A stretch of 64,000 nucleotides of DNA from Sipunculus nudus (Eukaryota > Annelida > Sipuncula > Golfingiida > Sipunculidae), in contig CM049318.1 of assembly GCA_026874595.1 (NCBI GenBank), positions 41,208,456 through 41,272,455 on the forward strand, written 5' to 3'. The notes beneath the pieces are model-generated. The model saw nothing but the letters and a program-made list of their open reading frames with translations, had not been told where the DNA came from and did no database searches. This document shows positions 2,667 through 38,600 of the stretch, piece after piece; position 1 is the first letter of the stretch; each line of letters starts with the position of its first letter. A program made the translations under genes and the position numbers.

Positions 2667-5600
2667 CTGAGAAAATGAAAATATGTAAAAACATCTCATT
2701 ATTTGCAAAAAGAATTCACCAAATTAATTTCTCACCTAAAGCTCTATGAAAATTACAAACAGAAAGATGTTTCTGTAATTCTCTTTGTATCTTAATTCTA
2801 AGTCTATAACGATTCAAAATGAATATTTCAAGTTTTGAGAGTTGAAAAAAGGCAACAGTTGGATTATTATTCACGGTTATCATAGTAGCAAAAAGATCAT
2901 AATACTGGGTTGACTTGTCAAATTACTGGTAAGATCACCCTTGTGTCATCATGGGTAACATTACCCTGAATTACATTATCACATAAATGAAAGGTGCATC
3001 ATGTCTGTGTTATATTTTAGGTACAATATGAAACTCATTAAACTGGTAAGAATCAGGCCATTCACTAATCCAAAACTTTATGTTTTTTACAATATGTAAC
3101 CAAAGAAATATACAGAGTAATTCTGCCAATGTTACACACTGCATGAAAACACATTGAGTTTTTCCATTAACCTGTATTAACATTCAAATTCATCTGTAAT
3201 AACATTCACATTCACCTGTATTAACATCCCAAGGAGACTGACGTGACCACACATGCTTGCGTAGTGCATGGCCGTACGCCCTCGAATATCCTTCAAGGTT
3301 ACATCAGCCCCGTGGTCTAATAAGGCTGCCACACATTCCTCCTGCCCATTTGTAGCCTGCAGCCGAAGATAACCTTTTAATTCTTGATAAAAATAACAGG
3401 TATCTGAGGAACAACCAATGTCATGTAGTCATTCAGAGAATGAGCAAGTATATCAGCCTTGTTGCATGTAAAAGATCTCTGTATCTCCAGTGACTTATCA
3501 ACTTAATAGTTCTAATCAAATTTGAACATTTTTTTCCAATATTCTGTGGTAAGCTGCTCATGGCATGATGGTATAAAATGGATAAGTAATTCATTATATA
3601 ATATTTCATTATGTTACAGCTTTCTGGATATTTTCCTATGGTATAATCTGATTGTTTAATCTACAATAGAAGCTATTATAATTTTTTTTCATCACATTCT
3701 TTTAAGAATATTTAAACAATTAACAGCTTGAAATCATTGTCAAAAGGTTGGACTGTGCGAAATGTGTATTCTGACTGAAAAAAAGAAATCTGATATTTGG
3801 AGTACCTTATGTAAGGCTGTGAATTTTAATTATTTTTTTAAGAATATAATAACTCTGAACAATCACGGAAATTAAAAAAATAATGTAAAAAACGTGAGGG
3901 AGGGAGGTCTATAATATACATCTACCGTACATCATTACTTTGTAGAAGTGGACCACAGCAGTGGTCTTCAGAAACTGCTTCAAGCATTAAATGTTCAATT
4001 TACATTTGAAAAATTCATCTCAACTGAGTGTGACTAAAATCTGGGTAGGTAAGGACATCCACATGATACCATGCCAAAGTTAACTAGAAATGGATATGAG
4101 TGATACTTTCTGAGATAATGAGTTGCAAATAAATTACTAATAAACAAGCAAATTCGTGGAATTTATGTCTCCCACTTCCCCCTCTTGTTGTCCTCTACCT
4201 GCCCTACTAATATGCTATAGTTTTTATTGTCCACTGAAGATGTCTCCACATGTCATAAATCTTGGTTGTGAATTGGGAACCAAAGGGTAATTTTTTGTTT
4301 TGTTTTTCAGCATCTGATCATAAATTTTTAGACAGACACTCAAAAACCAATCCCAACCAAGGTAGGCATGAGAGCAATCACTCACCCAAATTTGAATGAA
4401 ATTAGATAATATTTAGGAAAGTTAACACACAGACACGAAAACCTGATGGACAGACAGACAGGCAGACAGACAAAAAGAAAGACAGAGAGAAAGACAAACC
4501 CAAATTAATGTCCCCATTCCCAGGAAGTCGGGGACAAAAATAAGGACAAACAGTCAAGAGTTTGGTTTGGATTATGTCTCTCAAACACTGAAATATACCT
4601 ACTAATTTATTATGACTTCAATTTAAGAACTCAAACTGGATACAAAATTATATGCAGAATCCTCAAGATTTTTTATTTAACATACAGTTTTGCTGCAACA
4701 CCATTTTGTTACTGTAAGACCACAATCAACCCCACTTTAACCATATGTCAGCCTCTAACACTATAAATATGACCTAAATGGGTGTTAGGTATATCTATAC
4801 AACAGATTTCACCAAACTGGCCTTTAGGGGAACAATCTTATGTCAAGATATAACTGACCACATCACTCTGTGCACCAAATCAGAGTAATAGCTGTGTAAT
4901 TTTAACACAAGTAACACAATCCGAACAGTTAGTACTCAGTGTGACCGATGAGCAGACATACTGGGCTGTAATTGCTGGAATTGTGAAGCAGAATCAATCA
5001 TCCCCATAAACTACCCGTCCACCATTTATAATTAGGAAACCACTATATATCTCTTCCTCAACCTGTATACTTACTGATGAGAAGCCCGGCACTTGTACAG
5101 GTGTACATGCATGTAAAGAGTAATTACCTCATATAGCAACCATTGTGGCATACAATTATGGTCCAATAATTTTAGTAATAAATTTTCTTAATTTTTTACA
5201 CAAAAGGGATAAATTTTCAATGTGAAGAGTAATGGAATAATATCACATTAATAATTGTGAACCATTCCCATACCCCTGTCCACTTTTTTGTAAATATGTT
5301 TTAAATGCAATTAAAGAAATATGACCCAAAAATTCTAGCCTATTAGTGGATGGTATTCAGGCATTTTTCCTTTGATAATGTAAATATAAATCTCAATTCA
5401 ATGTTCATACTTTTGGTCCTAGAAAATTGCACCTACCCACAAAAATCAACAGTGAGCTAGCACTAACAGGAAAAATGTGCCAAGGTAGAAATTGTGCAAA
5501 ATTTAAGGAATTGTAAAATTTATGCTAACTAGATGTGGTCGGACAATGGTCCTCAAAGGGCCCCGCGTTTATGCTAGTGCTGGACTAGCTTACATATGGG

Positions 5601-8600
5601 TGAAAACTTAAGTTAAATTTGAAAAAATATCACAAACAGAAACAGGTTTTTATCAATATGTAAGAGGCACAAAATCATACTGGATTAAAGAAGATATGTA
5701 AAAAATAATGCGTGCAATAGAAAATCAGCGAATGTAGTCTGGTAGCCATATTTGATTTTGAGCAAGTCTGTAATTCAAAAGGTCTGGAGCCCTGATAGGG
5801 ACCAATGATCCCTGTAAATTTGGGAAAGCTGCAGGATGTTGTTGTTTAGTTATCACACACTAGAATATCAACAATTGGGCAGTGGCGGCCATATTGAAAT
5901 TCCAACAGGTCTGAAATTAAAAAGTTCTGGAGCCCTTAGTTACCAATCATCCCTGTGAATTTGGGAAAGCTGCAGAATGTTGTTATTGAGTTATAGCACA
6001 CGAAAGAAAATCAACGATCGGGCTGTGGCGGCCATATTTGAATTCCGACAGGTCTGTAATTCAATAGGTCTGGAGCCCTCATAGGTACCAATGATCCCCG
6101 GAAATTTTGCAAAGCTGCAGAAGGTTGTTGTTGAGTTATTGCGTGCCAAAGAAAATTGCGATTGGGCTGTGGCGGCCATATTTGAATTCTGACAAGTCTG
6201 TAATTTGATAGGTCTGGAGCCGTCATAGGTACCAATCATCCCTGTGAATTTGGGAAACTGCAGTATGTTGTTCTTGAGTTATAACGTCCGAAAGAAAATC
6301 AGCGATTGGGCTGTGGCAGCCATATTTGAATTCATACAAGTCTGTAATTCGATAGGTCTGGAGCTGTCATAGGTACCAATCATCCCTGTGAATTTGGGAA
6401 AGCTGCAGTTTGTTATTCTTGAGTTATCACATGCGAAAGAGAATCAGTGATTGGGCTGTTGCGGCCATATTTGAATTCCAAAGTGTGTAATTTGAAAGGT
6501 CTGGAGCCGTTAAAGGTACCAATCATCCCTGTGAATTTGGGAAAGCTGCAGTATGTTGTTCTTGAGTTGTCACGTCCGAAAGAAAATTGCGATTGGGTTG
6601 TGGCAGCCATATTTGAATTCTGACAAGTCTGTAATTCGATAGGTCTGGAGCCGTCATAGGATCCAATCATCCGTGTGAATTTTCGAAAGCTGTAGTATGT
6701 TGTTCTTGAGTTATCATGAGCTAAAGAAAATCAGCGATTGGGCTGTGGCGGCCATATTTGAATTCCAACAAGTCTGTAATTCAAAAAGTCTGGAGCCCTC
6801 ATAGTACTAACCATCCCTGTGAAGTTTGGAAAGCTGCACTATGGTTTTGTTGAGTTATCACGTGCGAACGAGAATCAGTGATTGGGCTGTTGTGGCCATA
6901 TTTGAATTCTGGTAAGTCTGTAATTTGAAAGGTCTGGAGCCATTAAAGGTACCAATCATCCCTGTGAATTTGGGAAAGCTGCAGTATGTTAATCTTGAGT
7001 TATCACGTGCGAAAGAGAATGAGCGATTGGGCTGTAGCGGCCATATTTGAATTCTGACAAGTCTGTAATTCGATAGGTCTTGAGCTCTCATAGGTACCAA
7101 TAATCCCTGTGCATTAGGGAAAGCTGCAGTAGGTTGTAGTTGAGTTTTTGCGTGCCAAAGAAAATCAGCGACTGGGCTGTGGCGGCAATATTTGAATTCT
7201 GACAAGTCTGTAATTCAATAGGTCTGGAGCTCTCACAGGTACCAATCATCTCTGTGAATTTGGGAAAGCTGCAGTAGGTTGTTGTTGAGTTTTTGTGTGC
7301 AAAATAAATTCAGCGATTGGGCTGTGGCGGCCATATTTGAAATCTGACAAGTCTGTAATTCGATAGGTCTGGAGCCCTTATAGGTACCAATCATCCCTGT
7401 GAATTTGGGAAAGCTGCAGTATGTTGGTGTTGAGTTATCGCTTGCAAAAGAAAGTGTCACTGACAGAAGGACGGATGGACGGAAGGATGAACTGACACGG
7501 TGATCACTATAGGGCACCTCTTGTCAAGTGGGGCCCTAATAACTTAAATTTACCCAAAAATTTGAATAAAATATAGTTATCTGCTTGTGTTGAGACAAAA
7601 AATTCCTTCAACATATACCATGTTAAGTGTAAAAATATCTTTCTTGCAGTTTTGACAAAGGTAAGTTATGTTTTGGGCCACAACTCCTACAAATTACACA
7701 ATACTGACCTAATTTTTGGTATTTGCATAGGAAATATGTTGAGAACCATATATGCCAAATATGAATGAATTAACAGTAATGATTTTGATAATAGGCAGTC
7801 TTGTAGTGTTACAACAGACTTTTTTTTATGAACAAGTGACCCATGGGTCATGACGCTCAGCTGACTGGGAAGAGATTCGCAAAAGGAAATTTTATCATCA
7901 GAATGGTAGTATATACCCATTCAACTGAAGCATCAAACAGATTAACCAACAGGCCAAGATTTAGTCTGTATTTACATATCTCAAAAATAGAGAAAATGTG
8001 TAAATTTTTAAAACTAGAATACGGGTAACCGACAAGTGACTACATGTATCTGCCAAAATCGGATAGTGAGGCATGGATTGAGTGGCAAGGGGAAATAGAG
8101 TGAGGTATGTTGCATATTAGCATGGATGTCTGCAGCCTAAATGTGTATGTAGGTTGTGCCACCTACCACAAATCCAGAAAGCTGTCCAAGTTGTATACAC
8201 CTGCAAAATTTTAGGCTGAAAAGTCAAACCACTACATGTATATGAGCGATTTTTGCCCATGGCAGACAAACAGACAAACACTGTGCAAAAATCTTTGCAG
8301 GTAACCCCTCCAGTTTTGTGTATGATAAAGACCTATGTGAGATCTAAACACATGCACAATTTTGGCCCAATCGGTCAAATGGTTCCTGAGATATGAGCTT
8401 GGATGTGTCCAGCGTTAACTAGAATGTAGGTGGCGCCACCTGTCATAAAATCAAGAAAGCTGTCCACGATGTATAAACCTGCAAAATTTTAGGCAGTTAT
8501 GTCGAACCACTACAGAGAAATGAGTAATTTTAGGCCACGGCAGACTAACAGACAGACGCTGTGCAAACATTGTTACAGGTGGCGCCACCATTTTTTGTGT

Positions 8601-11600
8601 ATGTTACAGAGCTATCAAAGGGCTACATTTGTATAAATTTTATTTCCTGATCGGTCAAACGGTTCCCGAGATATAAGCTTGGATGTCATCAGCGTGAACG
8701 TGAACGTAGGTGGCGCCACCTGTCATAAAATCAAGAAAGCTATCCTGGATGTATACACATGACGAATTTCAGGTGAATTAGTAAATTCACTGCAGAGATA
8801 TGAGTGATTTTAACCCAAGGCAGATGAACAGATGGACACTGTGCAAACATGGTTACAGGTGGCGCCACCATTTTTTGTGTATGTTATAAAGCAATCCAAG
8901 GGCTACATTTGTATCAATTTTATTTCCTGATCGGTCAAACGGTTCCCGAGATATGAGGGTTTATGAGTGGAAACAGACCCACAAATGGACACTGGATAGA
9001 GAGGAAAGGTCAGAGGTCAATGCAAATTGGTTAGGCACCAGTTCACATGTGACCCGATAATAGGTGTAAGTTTGGGAAAAATCGGTCCATTAGTCTCCGA
9101 GGAGCTCTCTGGAAACGAACGCCGCCGCGGCGGAGGAACTCGGTCAAAAACATAGTATCCGCAAAACTTCGTTTGGGCGGATACAAAAATACAGGTGGCT
9201 CCACCAGTCTGCAGAAACTAATAAAAACACTTAATGGTCAATATCCATGCAAAAAATCATGGTGATCTCTGCATTAGTTGTTCAGATACTTCAGTTTTTG
9301 TATCAAATTGTCCATTATTCTGAGGGATACTTTGGAGTCCTATAGCTTGAAGGATATGGGTAACAGAGACCTAATTTCAAGTTTCCACAGGCACCTTTCA
9401 TGGGCCTCCTTGCATGACAAGAATGAAGATTCTAGGTCCAGTTGTTGCGATTTGTACCCTGTTGACAGATAACCACATCTTTAAAGGTCTCAAAAAAAAG
9501 AAAAAAATTCGTAAAAATTTGAAAAAAAAATAGAGGTGGCACACCCAGTCTGCAGAAACTGATGGAACAGCTAATGATCAATATGTATGCCAAAAATCAT
9601 GACCATCAGTGTTGTAGTTATTGAAATACTGCAGTTTTTGTATCAAATTTTCCATTATTCTGGGGGGGGGGGGGGGTATTTTGGACCCATACAGCTTAAA
9701 GAATATGAGTAACAGAGACCTAATTTCAAGTTTCAATGGAGACTTTTCATGGGTCTCCCTGTGTGTCAAGAATGAAGATTCTTGGTCCAGTTTTTATGAT
9801 TTGTGCCCTGTTAACAGATGTTCATATCTTTAAAGGTCTCAAAAATACAGAAAAATTTCGTAAAAAAAAACGAACAAATACAGGTGGTGCCACCAGTCTG
9901 CAGAAACTTATGAAACACTCCATGATCAATATCCATGCAAACAATTAGGGTTATCTCTGCATTAGTTGTTCAGATACTTTAGCTTTTGTATCAAATTTTC
10001 CATTATTCTGAGCTGTACTTTGGAGTGCCATAGCTCAAAGGATATGGATAACAGAGACCAAATTTCAGGTTTCCATGGAGACTTATCATGGGTCTCCCTG
10101 TGTGTCAAGAACGAAGATTCTAGGTCCAGTCGTTACGATTTGTACCCTGTTGACAGATAACTACATCCTTAAAGGTCTCAAAAATGGAGAAAACAATTCG
10201 TGAACATTGAAAAATACAGGTGGCGCCACCAGTCTGCACAAACTGATGAAACATCTCATGATCAATATGTATGTTGAAAATCATGACCATCAGTGATGTA
10301 GTTAATGAGATATTGAAGTTTTTGTATGAACTTTTTGACTATTCTGGGGGGTAATTTTGGGCCCCATAGCTCGAAGGATATGGGTAACAGAGACCTAATT
10401 TCTGGTTTCCATGGAGACTTTTCATAGGTCTCTCAGTGTGTCGAAAATGAAGATTCTAGGTCCAGTCGTTACGATTTGTGCCACGCTAACAGATGACAGC
10501 ATCCTCAAAGGTCTCAAAAATAGAGGAAAAAATCGTAAAAAATCAAACAGTACAGGTGGCGCCACCAGTCTGCAGGAACTGATCGAACATCTCATGATCA
10601 ATATGTATGCCAAAAATGAAGACCATCAGCGATGTAGTTATTGAGATATTGAAGTTTTTGTATGAAATTTTTTACTATTCTGGGGGGTACTTTGGGGCCC
10701 CATAGCTCAAAGGATATGGGTAACAGAGACCTAATTTCTGGTTTCCAAGGAGATTTTTCATGGACCTCTCAGTGTGTCAAGAATTAAGATTCTAAGTCCA
10801 GTCTTTATGATTTGTGCCTTGTTAACAGATGTTCACATTTTTAAAGGTCTCAAAAATAGAGAAAAAAATTCGTAAAAAATCGAAAAATACAGGTGGCGCC
10901 ACCAGTCTGCAGGAAGTGATGTAACATCTCATGATCAATATGTATGCCAAAAATCATGACCATCAGTCAAGTAGTTAATGAGATATTGAAGTTTTTGTAT
11001 GAAATTTTTTACTTTTCTGGGGGGTACTTTGGGGCCACATAGCTCGAAGGATATGGGTAACAGAGACCTAATTTCTGGTTTCCAAGGAGATTTTTTATGG
11101 ACCTCTCAGAATTCCAAGTTACAAGGTTCTAGGTCCAGCGGTTACTATTTGTGCCTGTTTAACGGACGGACAGACGGACAGACGGACAGACGGACAATGG
11201 ACAAAGAGTGATCGCTATAGCTCAGATGACTTTCAGTCAGCTGAGCTAAAAATGGTTGTAATTGCTTAATTGCTTGAAGGAATGAAGCCACAGTGACCCA
11301 ATTTTGGGTTTGGTAAGACAACTCAGGGACATCTAACAGTATGCCAAATTATAAATTTGAAAGTTCAAAGGTGTCACAACGTGCCAGTCTAACAGATGAA
11401 GGAGAGATGGACTGACGATGGACACTGACTGATCACTACAGCTCCGTTAAGTTACAGTCAGCTGAGCTAAAATCTGGTGGACAGGGGTGATGGCAAGGAG
11501 TACAGTAGCTGACAAGACACACATGCAATATAATTATCAAACACAAGTAGCTTTCCCAGTCACCAGTATACCACCATTACCAACATTAATTACTCCCTTA

Positions 11601-17600: not shown

Positions 17601-20600
17601 ACTCAATAGATTCTTAAGAAAACTGTGTCCACACAGCATCGATTGTTTCTATTCAATGGTTGTTTTTAGAGCCAACTGATAGGGCAAATAGTAAATACAA
17701 TTCTCATAAATTATAAGGTACCTTAGTAAACGCACAAGACTGCCAGTTATATACTTGTCATTGATGTGCCTGTAACATCAGTTTGGGTCCCAAATCATTA
17801 ACATAGCTAATATCTATAGGGTCTGTTCATTTGTTCCCAAAATAAAATGCGGGATACCAAGGTTTTCTGATTGTCAAGGGGTGGATTATCAAGTCATCAA
17901 AGAACTGCAGAGGTCTTACACAAAATTATCTGACTGTATTTACATATATGTCTTTATTAATTTAAGTCACTTCACTACAATAGATGGATGACATGGATGG
18001 CTTACTTTGCTTCCGCATCAGAAGCAGCGGCATAATGGAGTGGCGAGCAGCCCCGGGCATCCAGTACGTTGACGTTGCTTCCCTTTGCAACTAGTGATAT
18101 TACACAGAGGTAGTGGTTGTTCACAGCAGCATAATGTAAAGGTGTCCTGTCAGCGAAACATAAATCATATCAACCATAATGTAACGGTGTCCTGTCAGTG
18201 AAATATAAATCATATCAACCATAATGTAACAGTGTCCTGTCAGTGAAATATAAATCATATCAACCATAATGTAACAGTGTCCTGTCAGTGAAATATAAAT
18301 CATATCAACCATAATGTAACAGTGTCCTGTCAGTGAAATATAAATCATATCAACCATAATGTAAAGGTGTCCTGTCAGCGAAACATAAATCATATCAACC
18401 ATAATGTAACAGTGTCCTGTCAGTGAAATATAAATCATATCAACCATAATGTAACGGTGTCCTGTCAGTGAAATATAAATAATATCAACCATAATGTAAC
18501 GGTGTCCTGTCAGCGAAACATAAATCATATCAACCATAATGTAACGGTGTCCTGTCAGTGAAATATAAATCATATCAACCATAATGTAACGGTGTCCTGT
18601 CAGCGACACATAAATCATATCAACCATAATGTAACAGTGTCCTGTCAGTGAAACATAAATCATATCAACCATAATGTAACGGTGTCCTGTCAGCGAAACA
18701 TAAATCATATCAACCATAATGTAACGGTGTCCTGTCAGCGAAACATAAATCATATCAACCATAATGTAACAGTGTCCTGTCAGTGAAATATAAATCATAT
18801 CAACCATAATGTAACAGTGTCCTGTCAGTGAAAAATAAATCATATTAACCATAATGTAACAGTGTCCTGTCAGTGAAATATAAATCATATCAACCATAAT
18901 GTAACAGTGTCCTGTCAGTGAAACATAAATCAAATCAACCATAATGTAACAGTGTCCTGTCAGTGAAACATAAATCATATCAACCATAATGTAACAGTGT
19001 CCTGTCAGCAAAATAATATAAATCATATCAACCATAATGTAACAGTGTCCTGTCAGCGAAATAATATAAATCATATCAACCATAATGTAACAGTGTCCTG
19101 TCAGTGAAACATAAATCATATTAACCATAATGTAACAGTGTCCTGTCAGTGAAACATAAATCATATCAACCATAATGTAACAGTGTCCTGTCAGCGAAAT
19201 AATATAAATCATATCAACCATAATGTAACAGTGTCCTGTCAGCGAAACATAAATCATATCAACCATAATGTAACAGTGTCCTGTCAGTGAAACATAAATC
19301 ATATCAACCATAATGTAACAGTGTCCTGTCAGCGAAATAATATAAATCATATCAACCATAATGTAACAGTGTCCTGTCAGCGAAATAATATAAATCATAT
19401 CAACCATAATGTAACAGTGTCCTGTCAGCGAAATAATATAAATCATATCAACCATAATGTAACAGTGTCCTGTCAGCGAAACATAAATCATATCAACCAT
19501 AATGTAACAGTGTCCTGTCAGTGAAACATAAATCATATCAACCATAATGTAACAGTGTCCTGTCAGCGAAATAATATAAATCATATTAACCATAATGTAA
19601 CAGTGTCCTGTCAGCGAAACATAAATCATATCAACCATAATGTAACAGTGTCCTGTCAGTGAAACATAAATCACATCAACCATAATGTAACAGTGTCCTG
19701 TCAGTGAAACATAAATCACATCAACCATAATGTAACAGTGTCCTGTCAGCGAAACATAAATCATATCAACCATAATGTAACAGTGTCCTGTCAGTGAAAC
19801 ATAAATCACACTAACCCCAATGTAACGGTGTCCTGTCAGTGTAACATAAATCATATCAACCATAATGTAACGGTGTCCTGTCAGCGAAACATTAATCATA
19901 TCAACCATAATATAACGGTGTCCTGTCAGCGAAACATAAATCATATCAACCATAATGTAACGGTGTCCTGTCAGCGAAACATAAATGTTATCAACCATAA
20001 TATAACGGTGTCCTGTCAGCGAAACATTAATCATATCAACCATAATATAACGGTGTCCTGTCAGTGAAACATAAATCACACTAACCATAATGTAACAGTG
20101 TCCTGTCAGTGAAACATAAATCACATTAACCATAATGTAACAGTGTCCTGTCAGTGAAACATAAATCACATCAACCATAATGTAACAGTGTCCTTTTAGT
20201 GAAACATAAATCACTTGACCATAATATAACAGTGTCCTGTCAGTAAATGACACCAAGAAATTATCATTAAATGCTGGACATTGCTTTGAAGAAATACCAT
20301 GTGTATATGACATAGTTATGTGTAGATGATACAAGTTGTGTACAGATGATAGAGGCTATGTGTAGATGTCAAAAGGATATGTGTACATGATACAGGTGGT
20401 GAATAGATGAATTTGGCTATGTGTAGATGGTACAGTTATGTGTAGATGATACAGGTTTTGGGTAGATAATAAAGATTATATGTACATGATATTGGTTGGG
20501 TAGATCATATAGGTATGTGCAGATGATAAAAAGTTAAGTGTAGATGATATATGGTCATGTGTAGATGATAAAGGTTATATGTACATGACGTTGGTTGTGT

Positions 20601-23600
20601 AGATTATATAGGTATTTGCAACTGATAAAAGGTTATGTGTAGATGATATAAGGTCATATGCAGCTGATACAGGGTCTGTGTATATGATATAGGTTATGTG
20701 TAGATGACACTTGTTTGTGTGGATGATAAAAAGTTATGTGTTGATGATAAAAGGTAATGTGTAGATTATTCAGGTTATGTGTAGATGAGAGAGACAGATA
20801 CATATATCTGACCCACCTGCCATCACCATCAACAAGATTGAAATCTGCTCCAACACTGATAAGTAAATCCAAAACCTCACTGTTTCTGAAACAGAAATCA
20901 AGTACTTTGTACAAAATGAAGATAATATGGTAAAGTGTTGAAAAAATAATGTAAAATTATAGCAAAATTTCCATGTAAAACAAATTAAAATTTCAACAAA
21001 TATATTTCTGTAAGATGTGTCTGATTTGGTAATTTTCACTTGTTTGATTTAGTGATTTCTCTATTATAAATGAGTGATCTTGTTTACGATTTCTATCACT
21101 GTAGGTTTGGGGTCCAACTTATTCAAATGAATGCTGTTACTGAGCCAACTTTGAAAGATATTGTATGTTTGGTTTTGTATCATCTGTATCTATATGTTAT
21201 TCCATCCTTTGGCCCAATGACCTCAAATCAATAGGGTTCTTCATTTTATGGGTGGGTGAGCTATATATGAAAGATGAAAGGTTTTTTGTCAAATATGTTC
21301 ACTGAAATGCATCCACGAGATGCATACAAGGGAGGCGTTGCTATATCCCCTCCTGCAACTTTGTTGCGAGGGGATAATCAAAATGACCTGACTGTGAGTG
21401 ACAGATATTAAATATGTTTAAACCTGGGTGGTGTCCCAGTGATTATTCTTTTAAAGCAAATTTTGTTGTTTTTTTTTTTAAATATTTCAATGTGCCATAC
21501 CCTCCACAAGCTGCACCATGTAGACATGTGCGACCAAGCTCGTCAGGGGTGTCTACCTGGAAGCCTGGCGTGCTGGTCAGGAGCTTCTTCACACAGTCCA
21601 GGTAACCATTCAGTGCTGCTAGGTGTACTGGCAGCATCCCACAGCTTCCCCTCCTACAGGGTATAAAAGTGCACTGTAGATATCAGCTTCCCAACACAAT
21701 ATATATGTCGAGGCCCAGATTAGAATCTGGCCCAATTTAAAACTGGGCCAGCCCAGATCAAAATTTTGATTCGGACCGGACCAGATCAAAATTCTAATCT
21801 GGGCCGGACCAGTTTTAAACTGGGCCAGCCCAGATTAAAATTTTGATCTGGGCCGGTCCAGATTAAAATCCTGTGTCGAAGCCTTCAGGATTCAAATCTG
21901 GTCTGGACTGATTTGAAACTGGGCCAGCCCAGATTAGAATTTTGATCTGGGCCGGTCAAGTTAACAATCCTATGGTGGACTGATTTTAAACTGGACTGGC
22001 CCAGATCAGATTCCTAATCTACTCCTAGGCTGGCTTCAATTACACTATATTTAACCAGCTGGCCTTTCATCAATTCAAAGAATTTGTAAAACATTGTGAG
22101 ACTGTAAGTCAATAATAATTAATATTTAATGAATTTATTTTATATTCTATGAAAATATCATTAGTTGGATCCTGTCATATTTATTTTTTAATTTCACCTC
22201 TTATGTGAAATGTCAAATATATAATTATAAGATAATCATGTTAAACATTGGTATTTTACAGCTAAAAACTACAAATATAGCTTGTAGAACATATGCATTA
22301 ATTCAACAAACAAAAACAAAATTTAATCAATAATAATTGATATATATGTTACTCATTGTTAAGCTTGTGATCCAAGACCTGTAAATTCTAAATTTTATTT
22401 GTTATGTTATTTATCATTTATCATTAGTTGGGGTTTTTTGTCTGTGATCTCCCCCCCACCCCACCTTCCAGTCACCCATTAAAAAATTTGCACTTATTGT
22501 AACATTGGACCTAGAACTTATAACGTACTACATATTAAGGAAAGAAGGCCCTGAAACATCTATACAGATAGAACAGTGGGAACAATATTCACCAACTCAG
22601 CAATTTTAACTATTGAAGGTAGAGAATATTTGTATTGCAGCTTTTAACTATATTCAATTTACATTAGTTATCAGTTAATAGATTAGCTTTTTTAAGTTAT
22701 TAACTCCAAAGTGAAAACTCCACCATGTTTGTCACCCTCTGAATAAAAATTCTAAATCCAATTTACACTCATGTTTACCTCTATTTTTGAGGCTGACAAA
22801 TGACAACAATCATATGATTTTCTCAGCTGTTGATTTTCTGCTATTGAAAATTACAGAAATGGTATCACAAACCTCTCCCTAGCCCCATGTTATGGCACAA
22901 TGTCATGCTGCTCACTCAAATGAGCATCAAGACTGATAAATTACTTCTGTTCACTTATAAATGGGTAAAGCTGGTATTTAATTATGCATGTATATATTTA
23001 ATATTACACATGAAATTTTGATATTCAGAACAGAAAATTATCTCAGTTAAGTTGATAATTTTGATATTAAGTCAAGTAGATGTCTCAGAACTGACACATA
23101 TTCTAAACTGTGATTAATTATGGTAGTTGGTTCAGGTAAAGTTTAAATGTAAACTTGTACGCTTGAAGAATAGATGAAACCAAAGAAGCACATCACATTT
23201 GTTCATTAGCTTTTTCCTTACTAAAATATTTTAAATGATCTTGTTCATTATGTGTTTTGTGCCCTTCAAAATGGTGTATCTGGAATAAATGTTTACTGTA
23301 TTATCTGATTTAAGATGATAACAAGTGACCCATGGGTCATGACGCTCAGCTGCCAAGCATGACCTGTGACATCATGGACTGAGATTCACAACTTCCGGTC
23401 AAATTTTGAAGAACCAATTTGCCAATTTGTTGAAAATTTTCTATGACAACAGAAATATATATCACCTATGTCTGGTTAAAACACAGTGAATTGATGGTCT
23501 GAGGAAATGCATGATTGTTAAGCTATCAGGAACTATTCCAACAGCTTGCTTGAAACCTGTCAGTCTCAAAAGGAACACCACAAAGGGCAAATATAAGATC

Positions 23601-35600: not shown

Positions 35601-38600
35601 TACAGTCTTGTGACATATCAGTGATGACAGAAACTGACAGTCTTACACTACAGTAGAACCTCAAATATCCAAATGCTTTAGGGGGACATAAAATTTGTTG
35701 GATAATTGTATCCGCCAAAACAGAGTTTTGCGGATACTATGTTTTCAGCTGCACGCCGCCGCCGCCGCGTAGGTTTCCGGAGAACTCCTCCGTAACCGCT
35801 GGGTGGAATTTTACGAAACCCAGGATTCTGTTCGGGTCACATGTGAACTGCTGCGCCCCGATTTTGTTTTGACCTCTGACCTTTCCTCTGCGCTCTGCGT
35901 CCGTTTGTGCGTCTGTTTCCACACATAAACCCACATATCTCGGGAACCGTTTGACGGATCAGGAAAATTTTTTTGCACAAATGTAGCCCTTGGAGAGCTT
36001 TATAACATACACAAAAAATGGTGGCGCCACCTGCAACCATGTCTGCACAGTGTCCATCTGTTCGTCTGCCTTGGGTTAAAATCACTCATATCTCTGCAGT
36101 GACTTGACTAATTCACCTGAAATTTGGCATGCGTATACATCCTGGATAGCTTTTCTGATTTTGTGACAGGTGGCGCCACCTACATTCACGTTTACGCTGC
36201 AGACATCCAAGCTCATATCTGGGGAACTGTTTGAGGGATCAGGAAAATTTTTTTGCACAAATGTAGCCCTTGGAGAGCTTTATAACATACACAAAAAATG
36301 GTGGCGCCACCTGCAACCATGTTTGCACAGTGTCCATCTGTTTGTCTGCCTTGGGTTAAAATCACTCATATCTCTGCAGTGACTTGACTAATTCACCTGA
36401 AATTCGGCATGCGTATACATCCTGGATAGCTTTTCTGATTTTATGACAGGTGGCGCCACCTACATTCACGTTTACGCTGCAGACATCCAAGCTCATATCT
36501 CGGGAACCGTTTGACCGATCAGGAAAATTTTTTTGCACAAATGTAGCCCTTGGAGAGCTTTATAACATACGCAAAACTGGTGGCGCCACCTACAGCCATT
36601 TTTGCACAGCTCCTGTCTGTTTGTCTGCCATGGGATAAAATCACTCATATCTCGACAGTGGTTTGACATATCTGGCTAAAATTTTGCAGGTTTATACATC
36701 CCCGACAGCTCTCTTGATTTTATGACAGGTGGAGCCACCTGCATTCTAGTTTATGCAGCAGACATCCAAGCTCATATCTTTGGAACCGTTTGACCGATTG
36801 GGCCAAAGTTTTGCATGTGTATAGTTCTCACATAGCTCTTTATCATACGCAAAACTGGTGCCGTCACCTGCAACCATTTTTGCTCAGCATCCATCTGATT
36901 GTCTGCCACGTGCTAAAATCACTCATATACATGTAGTGGTTTGACTTATCTGCCTTAAATTTTGCATATGTATACAACTGGCACGGCTTTCTTGATTTTG
37001 TGGTAGGGGGGGCAACCTTCATACACAATTTGGCTGCAGACATCCATGCTAATATGCAACACTTCACTCTATTTCCCCTTGCCACTTAATCCATGCCTCA
37101 CTTCACCCGTTCCACTCTGATTTAGGCGGATACACGTAGTCGCTTGTCGACTACCCGTATTCTAGTTGAGGTTATGGATATGTGAGGTCAGACATTTTTA
37201 AAACAAGTATACTGCATATCCTTATGAACCCTCAGTTAATAAGCTTATCCTGACATAAAGTAACATTATCTCATCTGATCATGTTTTTCATTATTAATCC
37301 TATTTCTTTTCAATAGCGGCAAAGCACTTAATAGAGCTAAATTTTTGGAAAAAAGAGATAAGAAAATTTGAGGATCTACTATACATACATTTGATGATTA
37401 GTAGTGATATGGCCACTTGAACTGACATCATTTTTGGTGAAGTGGAATATACAGGTCCCAGCGTCCCAAAGTAATTATATTTATTTCATGCTTATTTAAA
37501 TTATCATAAATCGCCAAATTACTTTCTTTGATAACAGATAATTTAAAGTACCAAACAAAATATATTTGAAAGAAATATCCCAAAAAATAGGTGAACAGGG
37601 GTGTTGAAAATACAACATGTTTAGGAGCAGAACCTGTGCAATTTTCAGATTTATGAAGGATAGATTCTGAAAAGGAAACTTAATTTATAACATTAAGTAA
37701 CACTGCTAAAGGTACAGATTTAATTTTGACTTTTGCAAACTGCAAAAGCATCATCCAGCTTTCATTCTAACAAGGGACCTATGGGTCACGGCGCTCAGCT
37801 GTTATATAAGATAAAAAAATATGATTTTGAAATGAGGCACATGCTGGTTTTGTGTGGAAATAAATATAAGCTGTATTATGAGTTGTTAGTGTTAAGCTTA
37901 TGTATGATTTTGATAGTTTCTTTGGAGACAGGGAAGAGATTGATTTCATTTATTTTATTAACAAATGGAGTGCCACTGTCATACAGATTTTGACTTGGCC
38001 ATATAACTGATAAGCAGCACATATAAGATAAAGAGTTTAACTATTTATTAAAATTTAATAACAAATATTGTTCCAAATATAATTTTTATTAAAAATAATA
38101 AGAGAATCATATGATTTTTTTAATAAAATATAACTGAAATGATTATTAAAATAATATTATAGAATATATTCATGAATGCATTCATGAATACATTTTGAAA
38201 GTATTTGCACTGGTATTCAAATACTTTCATTTTTACCTGAATTCCCATTCTTATGCAAGAAATTTTATAATGGCATGTCTGGTATTTATTCAGTTTTAGC
38301 CAAACAATGATGTTGAGAATCCAGAATATAAACAAAGGACCCATGGGTCACGACAGCCAGCTTAGGTTTGAAATTTTTGCAAATGCAAAATATGAAAAAT
38401 ATTCTATTGTAATGTTTTTTATTTATATAAGCATATGAGAAGCTAAGAGGAAAGGGCCCTCCTACTTGGTTATAGTAAAGTTCTCAATATATGATTGCAA
38501 ACTAATACTCTGACAAGACTGTCATGAAGAAAAACAGTAAAAGTTTTGAGATACTGTGATGCATAAGAAAAATTTGCAGAAGGACAGGCAAGTGGACAGA

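Follow-up and report, generated by a model that had tools for sequence, protein, structure and literature searches.

Minisatellite-like duplications of intron-exon boundaries are known from lancelets under the name of 'mirages', and cases have been described in Adh3, globin, troponin C and PGBD5 genes (PMC3087553, PMC3902484), those of troponin C and PGBD5 being added in the paper on PGBD5 (PMC3902484). According to the globin paper of 2010, the units of the lancelet Adh3 gene measure 10-72 bp, and in BflGb6 one haplotype carries 6 units of 150-160 bp and another carries 3. The same source reports somatic length instability at Adh3, after a paper of 2002, and RT-PCR suggested that genes with lancelet mirages are spliced normally (PMC3087553).

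Boundary repeats have also been described in human genes. Internal tandem repeats at exon-intron boundaries, with an average unit of 30 bp present four times, are reported from genes in recent segmental duplications and can create new introns and alternative splicing (PMC2812944). In intron 18 of ABCA7, the 25-bp unit of a VNTR starts with a donor, and exon 19 (132 nt, in frame) is skipped more as the array gets longer (PMC5954066). The CBS variant 844ins68 duplicates the junction of intron 7 and exon 8 (a donor, in the wording of the source), and the distal copy is strongly favoured (PMC2630376).

Here we analyse a stretch of 64,000 nucleotides from Sipunculus nudus (the window), in which a minus-strand gene carries 46 tandem copies of its own 3' splice site directly before the authentic one. 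As in BflGb6, each unit consists of an intron end and an exon start and lies beside the authentic exon; as in lancelet mirages generally, for which acceptor-side and donor-side cases exist, splice signals are found in many units. The present array differs in having 46 units of 44-48 bp, and an ANKRD28/44/52-like gene is not named among the lancelet cases in the cited parts of these papers. The human boundary repeats are likewise minisatellites at exon-intron boundaries, and non-lancelet, but the cited part of the source does not present them as rows of intact acceptors (PMC2812944). The ABCA7 VNTR shares a splice signal within the unit beside an exon and possible in-frame skipping of the neighbouring exon. 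Unlike the S. nudus array, it lies on the donor side with a 25-bp intronic unit, and has a measured effect of length; in S. nudus the signal common to array and exon edge is the acceptor. CBS 844ins68 is a single 68-bp duplication, and the 31-bp VNTR of CBS, which does cross an exon end (c.1444_1467+7 by its name), is a donor-side repeat whose notation gives 16-21 copies (PMC2630376). The array is a large example of the known mirage kind, and its copy number is what stands out. For the array noticed in a preliminary description of this DNA, novelty of kind is therefore not upheld, as mirages had been described in lancelets (PMC3087553, PMC3902484), and a search of the open-licence literature found no report of the present array, nor of a 'mirage' by that name beyond lancelets.

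Results

The array within the gene

A stretch of human ANKRD28 was used as tblastn query against the window. The minus-strand exons are colinear with it from 46279 to 3216 among the matches listed, and the exon at 18146-18006 is 60% identical to the query. This exon-by-exon colinearity points to an ANKRD28/44/52-like gene; the name is to be taken as a lead only. Among the matches listed (60 of 477 PDB sequences), ANKRD28, 44 or 52 did not occur by name. Within the window, from 46285 to 646, we placed 19 exons, all with sound splice signals. The exon behind the array had been numbered 12 in the preliminary description; the exon itself was confirmed, but it is the 10th of the 19 placed, and the 5' start of the gene is absent from these. 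It has phase 2 introns on either side and encodes (R), 46 residues and (K). The features needed below are as follows, all on the minus strand.

20817..20885, minus strand, preceding exon, ending GGCAG/GTGGGT (exon placement and splice signals)
20299..20788, minus strand, second minisatellite of about 20 bp, 24.6 copies, 68% matches (TRF)
18147..20236, minus strand, array of 46 tandem units, that is 46 decoy acceptors (TRF and cutting at AG/GACAC)
20193..20236, minus strand, unit 1, 44 bp, the most diverged unit, with 9 differences from the inferred ancestral unit (unit alignment)
18147..18191, minus strand, unit 46, intron side of the real acceptor, with a branch-like TTGAT (motif match only)
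18130..18146, minus strand, exon start common to the units, +1 to +17 (alignment of units and exon)
18006..18146, minus strand, the real exon, 141 nt (splice signals and frame)

The intron between the two exons is 2670 nt long, 2090 nt of which are the array (20236-18147). The second minisatellite begins at intron position 29, and the two together make up most of the intron.

Anatomy of the units

AG/GACAC occurs 47 times on the minus strand between 20236 and 18146, 46 times in the array and once at the real acceptor 18146, which bears out the earlier estimate of about 46 decoy acceptors. Thirty-eight units are 45 bp long, seven are 48 bp and one is 44 bp; TRF gives 46.6 copies with 93% matches, and mean pairwise identity is 93.6% when the 3 extra bases of the 48-bp units are excluded. 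Because an array of 2.1 kb with 93% matches ends in register on the exon edge, chance is not its explanation. A typical unit comprises 17 nt of exon start and 28 nt of intron end, so that the tandem repeat crosses the boundary with an exonic and an intronic part, in register with 18146. The origin from the gene's own 3' splice site and the position of the real site as the last copy, both proposed in the preliminary description, agree with this structure.

The splice signals are retained in nearly every unit. AG/GACAC is present in 46/46, so the AG of the block does not differ from that of the exon edge, a difference that the preliminary description had named as decisive against its reading. 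CTGACAG precedes GACAC in 45 of the 46 decoys and at the real site. The earlier statement that every 45- or 48-bp unit holds CTGACAG/GACAC thus stands apart from decoy 2, which reads CTAAAAG; one further unit measures 44 bp. On the exon side, where the units had been said to carry the first 16 or so bases of the exon, the common stretch runs from +1 to +17: all 46 units are identical to the exon through +5, 14 through +6, and unit 42 alone agrees with it at every one of the 17 nt. Where unit and exon part, the unit usually has CCG or CTG and the exon CCT. The inferred ancestral unit differs from the exon edge by a single base, at +7, where unit 42 has the base of the exon. Upstream, nine decoys are identical to the real site over -28 to -1 and three over -45 to -1. 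No homology could be demonstrated past +17 (465 of 500 shuffles score as high), and a degenerate extra unit before unit 1 was rejected as not significant (143 of 500).

The inferred ancestral unit is present unchanged four times, once as the last unit. Differences from it number 9 in the 5' unit, 0-6 in the other units and 0 in the 3' unit. The commonest variable positions are 6 (C/T, with T in 32/46) and 38 (G/A, with A in 25/46), a pattern compatible with CpG decay of the inferred ancestral unit. Variants are clustered along the array, neighbouring units differing at 2.3 positions on average and units 15 apart at 3.0, which is a weak sign of local turnover. The invariant 12-nt block CTGACAG/GACAC could be a hint of constraint. 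Selection on it was rejected when all units were used (permutation p 0.25), and p = 0.04 was obtained when unit 1 was omitted, an omission chosen post hoc.

When the array was searched against the genome, here one haplotype of 1,426,538,692 bases in 153 contigs (1.43 Gb; G+C 36-37%; 13 contigs of 70.9-110.9 Mb among those listed), nine of ten matches fell inside the array itself. The tenth, a 68% match on another chromosome (contig C11), was rejected as a homologue because it belongs to a GPI-like gene and is a minisatellite of a different kind, with a period of 40 bp. No RNA family reached its gathering score within the window, and viral contigs gave no match for the array unit or for one dispersed repeat.

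Splice signals at the real site and at the decoys

An acceptor weight matrix was built from the 18 other acceptors of the gene, whose own mean score is 6.2 if the acceptor being scored is withheld from the matrix. The real site scores 9.2; 28 of the 46 decoys reach at least this value and 18 fall below it, the lowest being decoy 1 (3.8) and decoy 2 (2.3). Nine decoys share all 28 upstream nt with the real site, and the dozens of near-identical sites of which the preliminary description spoke are indeed present. The branch-like TTGAT, with its A 24 nt upstream of the exon, is found at decoy 46 as well as at the real site, as a motif only. A search of 17700-20900 for inverted repeats able to loop out the array (at least 16 bp, 9-base seed) had no result. 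The real site is not distinguished by local sequence or local folding.

It should be further pointed out that acceptor 42031, which precedes a different exon of this gene, has the sequence TGACAG/GACACTGTT and shares 15 bases with the commonest array variants. This likeness is probably due to chance plus splice consensus.

Reading frames after decoy splicing

After splicing at 45 of the 46 decoys, translation would meet a stop within seven codons, with residues numbered from the arginine at the junction. The readings are TPLHYG* and TLLHYG*, as announced in the preliminary description, together with variants that include TPLYYG and TPLHWG. Its claim that any decoy truncates the protein in this way fails for decoy 1, which meets no early stop: since unit 1 is one base short, the reading enters the open frame of the array, which runs for 696 codons, and would end in the real exon after 705 residues. 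Exons counted from the real site and from the next decoys would be 141, 186, 231 and 276 nt long, the last three with an in-frame stop. If the 141-nt exon were skipped, the frame would be kept and the protein would lack 47 residues of ankyrin repeat. Neither this in-frame skipping nor the reading of about 700 codons from decoy 1 had been part of the earlier account.

Tandem repeats elsewhere in the gene and genome

Tandem arrays with a period of at least 10 occupy 15.5% of the window. In 200 kb sampled from 20 places in the genome, their share is 15.4%, with 10 arrays of at least 10 copies. Most of this share comes from three of the 20 places, in which long arrays take up all or half of the sequence; the other 17 average 5.4%. 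Within the gene, an ungapped 30-nt test with ten shuffles found a local duplicate at 2 of 38 boundaries, namely acceptor 18146 and donor 3216, the latter belonging to another exon.

3166..3227, minus strand, 22-bp repeat of 2.8 copies over donor 3216 (TRF and boundary-duplicate test)

Judged by its sequence, this repeat is a small donor-side example of boundary duplication. Its third copy retains CAG/GT 44 nt downstream, the use of which would shift the frame. A gene on C11 that resembles GPI served as control. None of its 17 exon hits was overlapped by an array of period at least 10, the nearest arrays being 13, 28 and 59 nt away; exon ends were set by eye, and two weak matches on the minus strand (E 0.56 and 3.7) were excluded. 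Because no control exon was overlapped, boundary arrays are not an everyday feature. Arrays as such are common in this genome, and a single one on a splice boundary is not astonishing.

In a GPI-like gene, a 40-bp minisatellite of 27 copies (L009 2910-3996, G000:C11) ends 13 nt before an exon. The units read carry ACAG, so that numerous AGs lie close before a real acceptor with no duplication of the exon. Elsewhere in the window, larger tandem repeats (280 and 336 bp) with the palindrome GGTGGCGCCACC lie at 8114-11159 and 35934-37055. At 8.1 kb and 35.9 kb, the 280-bp arrays resemble each other but run in opposite directions, and the 336-bp array looks different.

Discussion

Proposed origin of the array and proposed choice of the last acceptor

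We consider it likely that the array is a mirage-type minisatellite without function of its own, and that exon definition is the main reason why the real exon is chosen. The same anatomy in lancelet mirages, with splicing that RT-PCR suggested to be normal (PMC3087553), the favoured distal copy of CBS 844ins68 (PMC2630376) and the frequency of tandem arrays in this genome speak for this reading. The length effect of the ABCA7 VNTR (PMC5954066) and the new introns made by human boundary repeats (PMC2812944) speak against it. The repeated block spans -28 to +17, and homology is not demonstrable past +17 or before unit 1, which argues for repeated duplication with the real site as last copy. A 45-bp segment over the 3' splice site would have been duplicated in tandem, and unequal exchange or slippage would have expanded it to 46 copies and partially homogenised these. 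The local splice signals leave the choice of the last site unexplained, and the sequence beyond +17, that is the exon body and donor, is all that differs; from this we infer exon definition. Under this model, signals in the exon body and U1 at donor 18006 downstream would pair with the nearest upstream acceptor and so define the 141-nt exon. The mRNA from any decoy use would presumably be removed by nonsense-mediated decay, since the decoy exons contain an in-frame stop.

The array might instead act as a length-dependent splicing rheostat, where more units would mean more competing acceptors, abortive pairing, and exon skipping or stop-containing mRNA. We regard this as rather unlikely. It would suit the strength of the decoys, 28/46 of which score at least 9.2, and the in-frame skipping of the 141-nt exon; the ABCA7 VNTR, where skipping of exon 19 goes up with array length and an isoform retaining one unit exists, supplies a precedent (PMC5954066). 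However, that one-unit retention, the nearest equivalent of decoy use, amounts to about 2% and is independent of length according to the same source (PMC5954066), lancelet mirages were reported without disturbance of splicing in the cited parts of both papers (PMC3087553, PMC3902484), and there is no clear sign that the array is selectively maintained; the sequence represents one haplotype. A role of the array in tuning splicing is thus possible, with no direct support in the sequence.

Silencing of the decoys by a local RNA hairpin is very improbable. In this model, TGACAG would pair with CTGTTA around a GACA loop in GACACTG units and hide the AG, and the real site (GACACCT) could not form the structure. 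The predicted energy of -5.1 kcal/mol is in its favour, as is the mean predicted probability of an unpaired AG, which with 20 nt on each side is 0.03 in 32 CTG decoys, as against 0.72 in 13 of the CCG type and 0.46 for the real acceptor. Yet unit 46, the closest competitor, is of the open kind, and the real site is itself predicted to be paired when 30 or 45 nt are taken on each side (0.04 and 0.03). With 200 nt on each side, real site and decoys come out alike (0.15 vs a mean of 0.11), and the true acceptor 42031 is predicted to form a like hairpin of greater stability (0.02; -7.8 kcal/mol). As for an alternative coding exon, in which splicing at decoy 1 would bring in about 700 codons for a repeat of 15 or 16 residues, we find it scarcely credible. 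The frame is stop-free over the entire array (696 codons), but it ends inside the real exon with loss of the remainder of the protein, and decoy 1 is among the two weakest sites (3.8). In this frame, one of three for which counts were made, the 19 kinds of change comprise 16 replacement and 3 silent ones (expected weights 130 to 44), so no purifying selection is seen, and 19 random changes would create no stop with a probability of 0.53. The open frame therefore looks accidental.

Significance

It is unlikely that copy number, here 46, sets the ratio of full-length, exon-skipped (47 residues fewer, in frame) and stop-containing mRNA, and at the same time that mirages arise wherever the tandem-repeat load is high, beyond lancelets too; if this were true, array length would govern the isoforms of a phosphatase-6-type ankyrin subunit. 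On the preferred reading of a functionless array and exon definition, the locus offers a natural competition test, with 47 acceptors before one exon and nine decoys matching the real site over 28 nt upstream. RNA reads would show how strict the preference for the last site is, and hence how much weight exon definition carries. The array also adds a large case, probably outside lancelets, to a kind that was named from lancelets.
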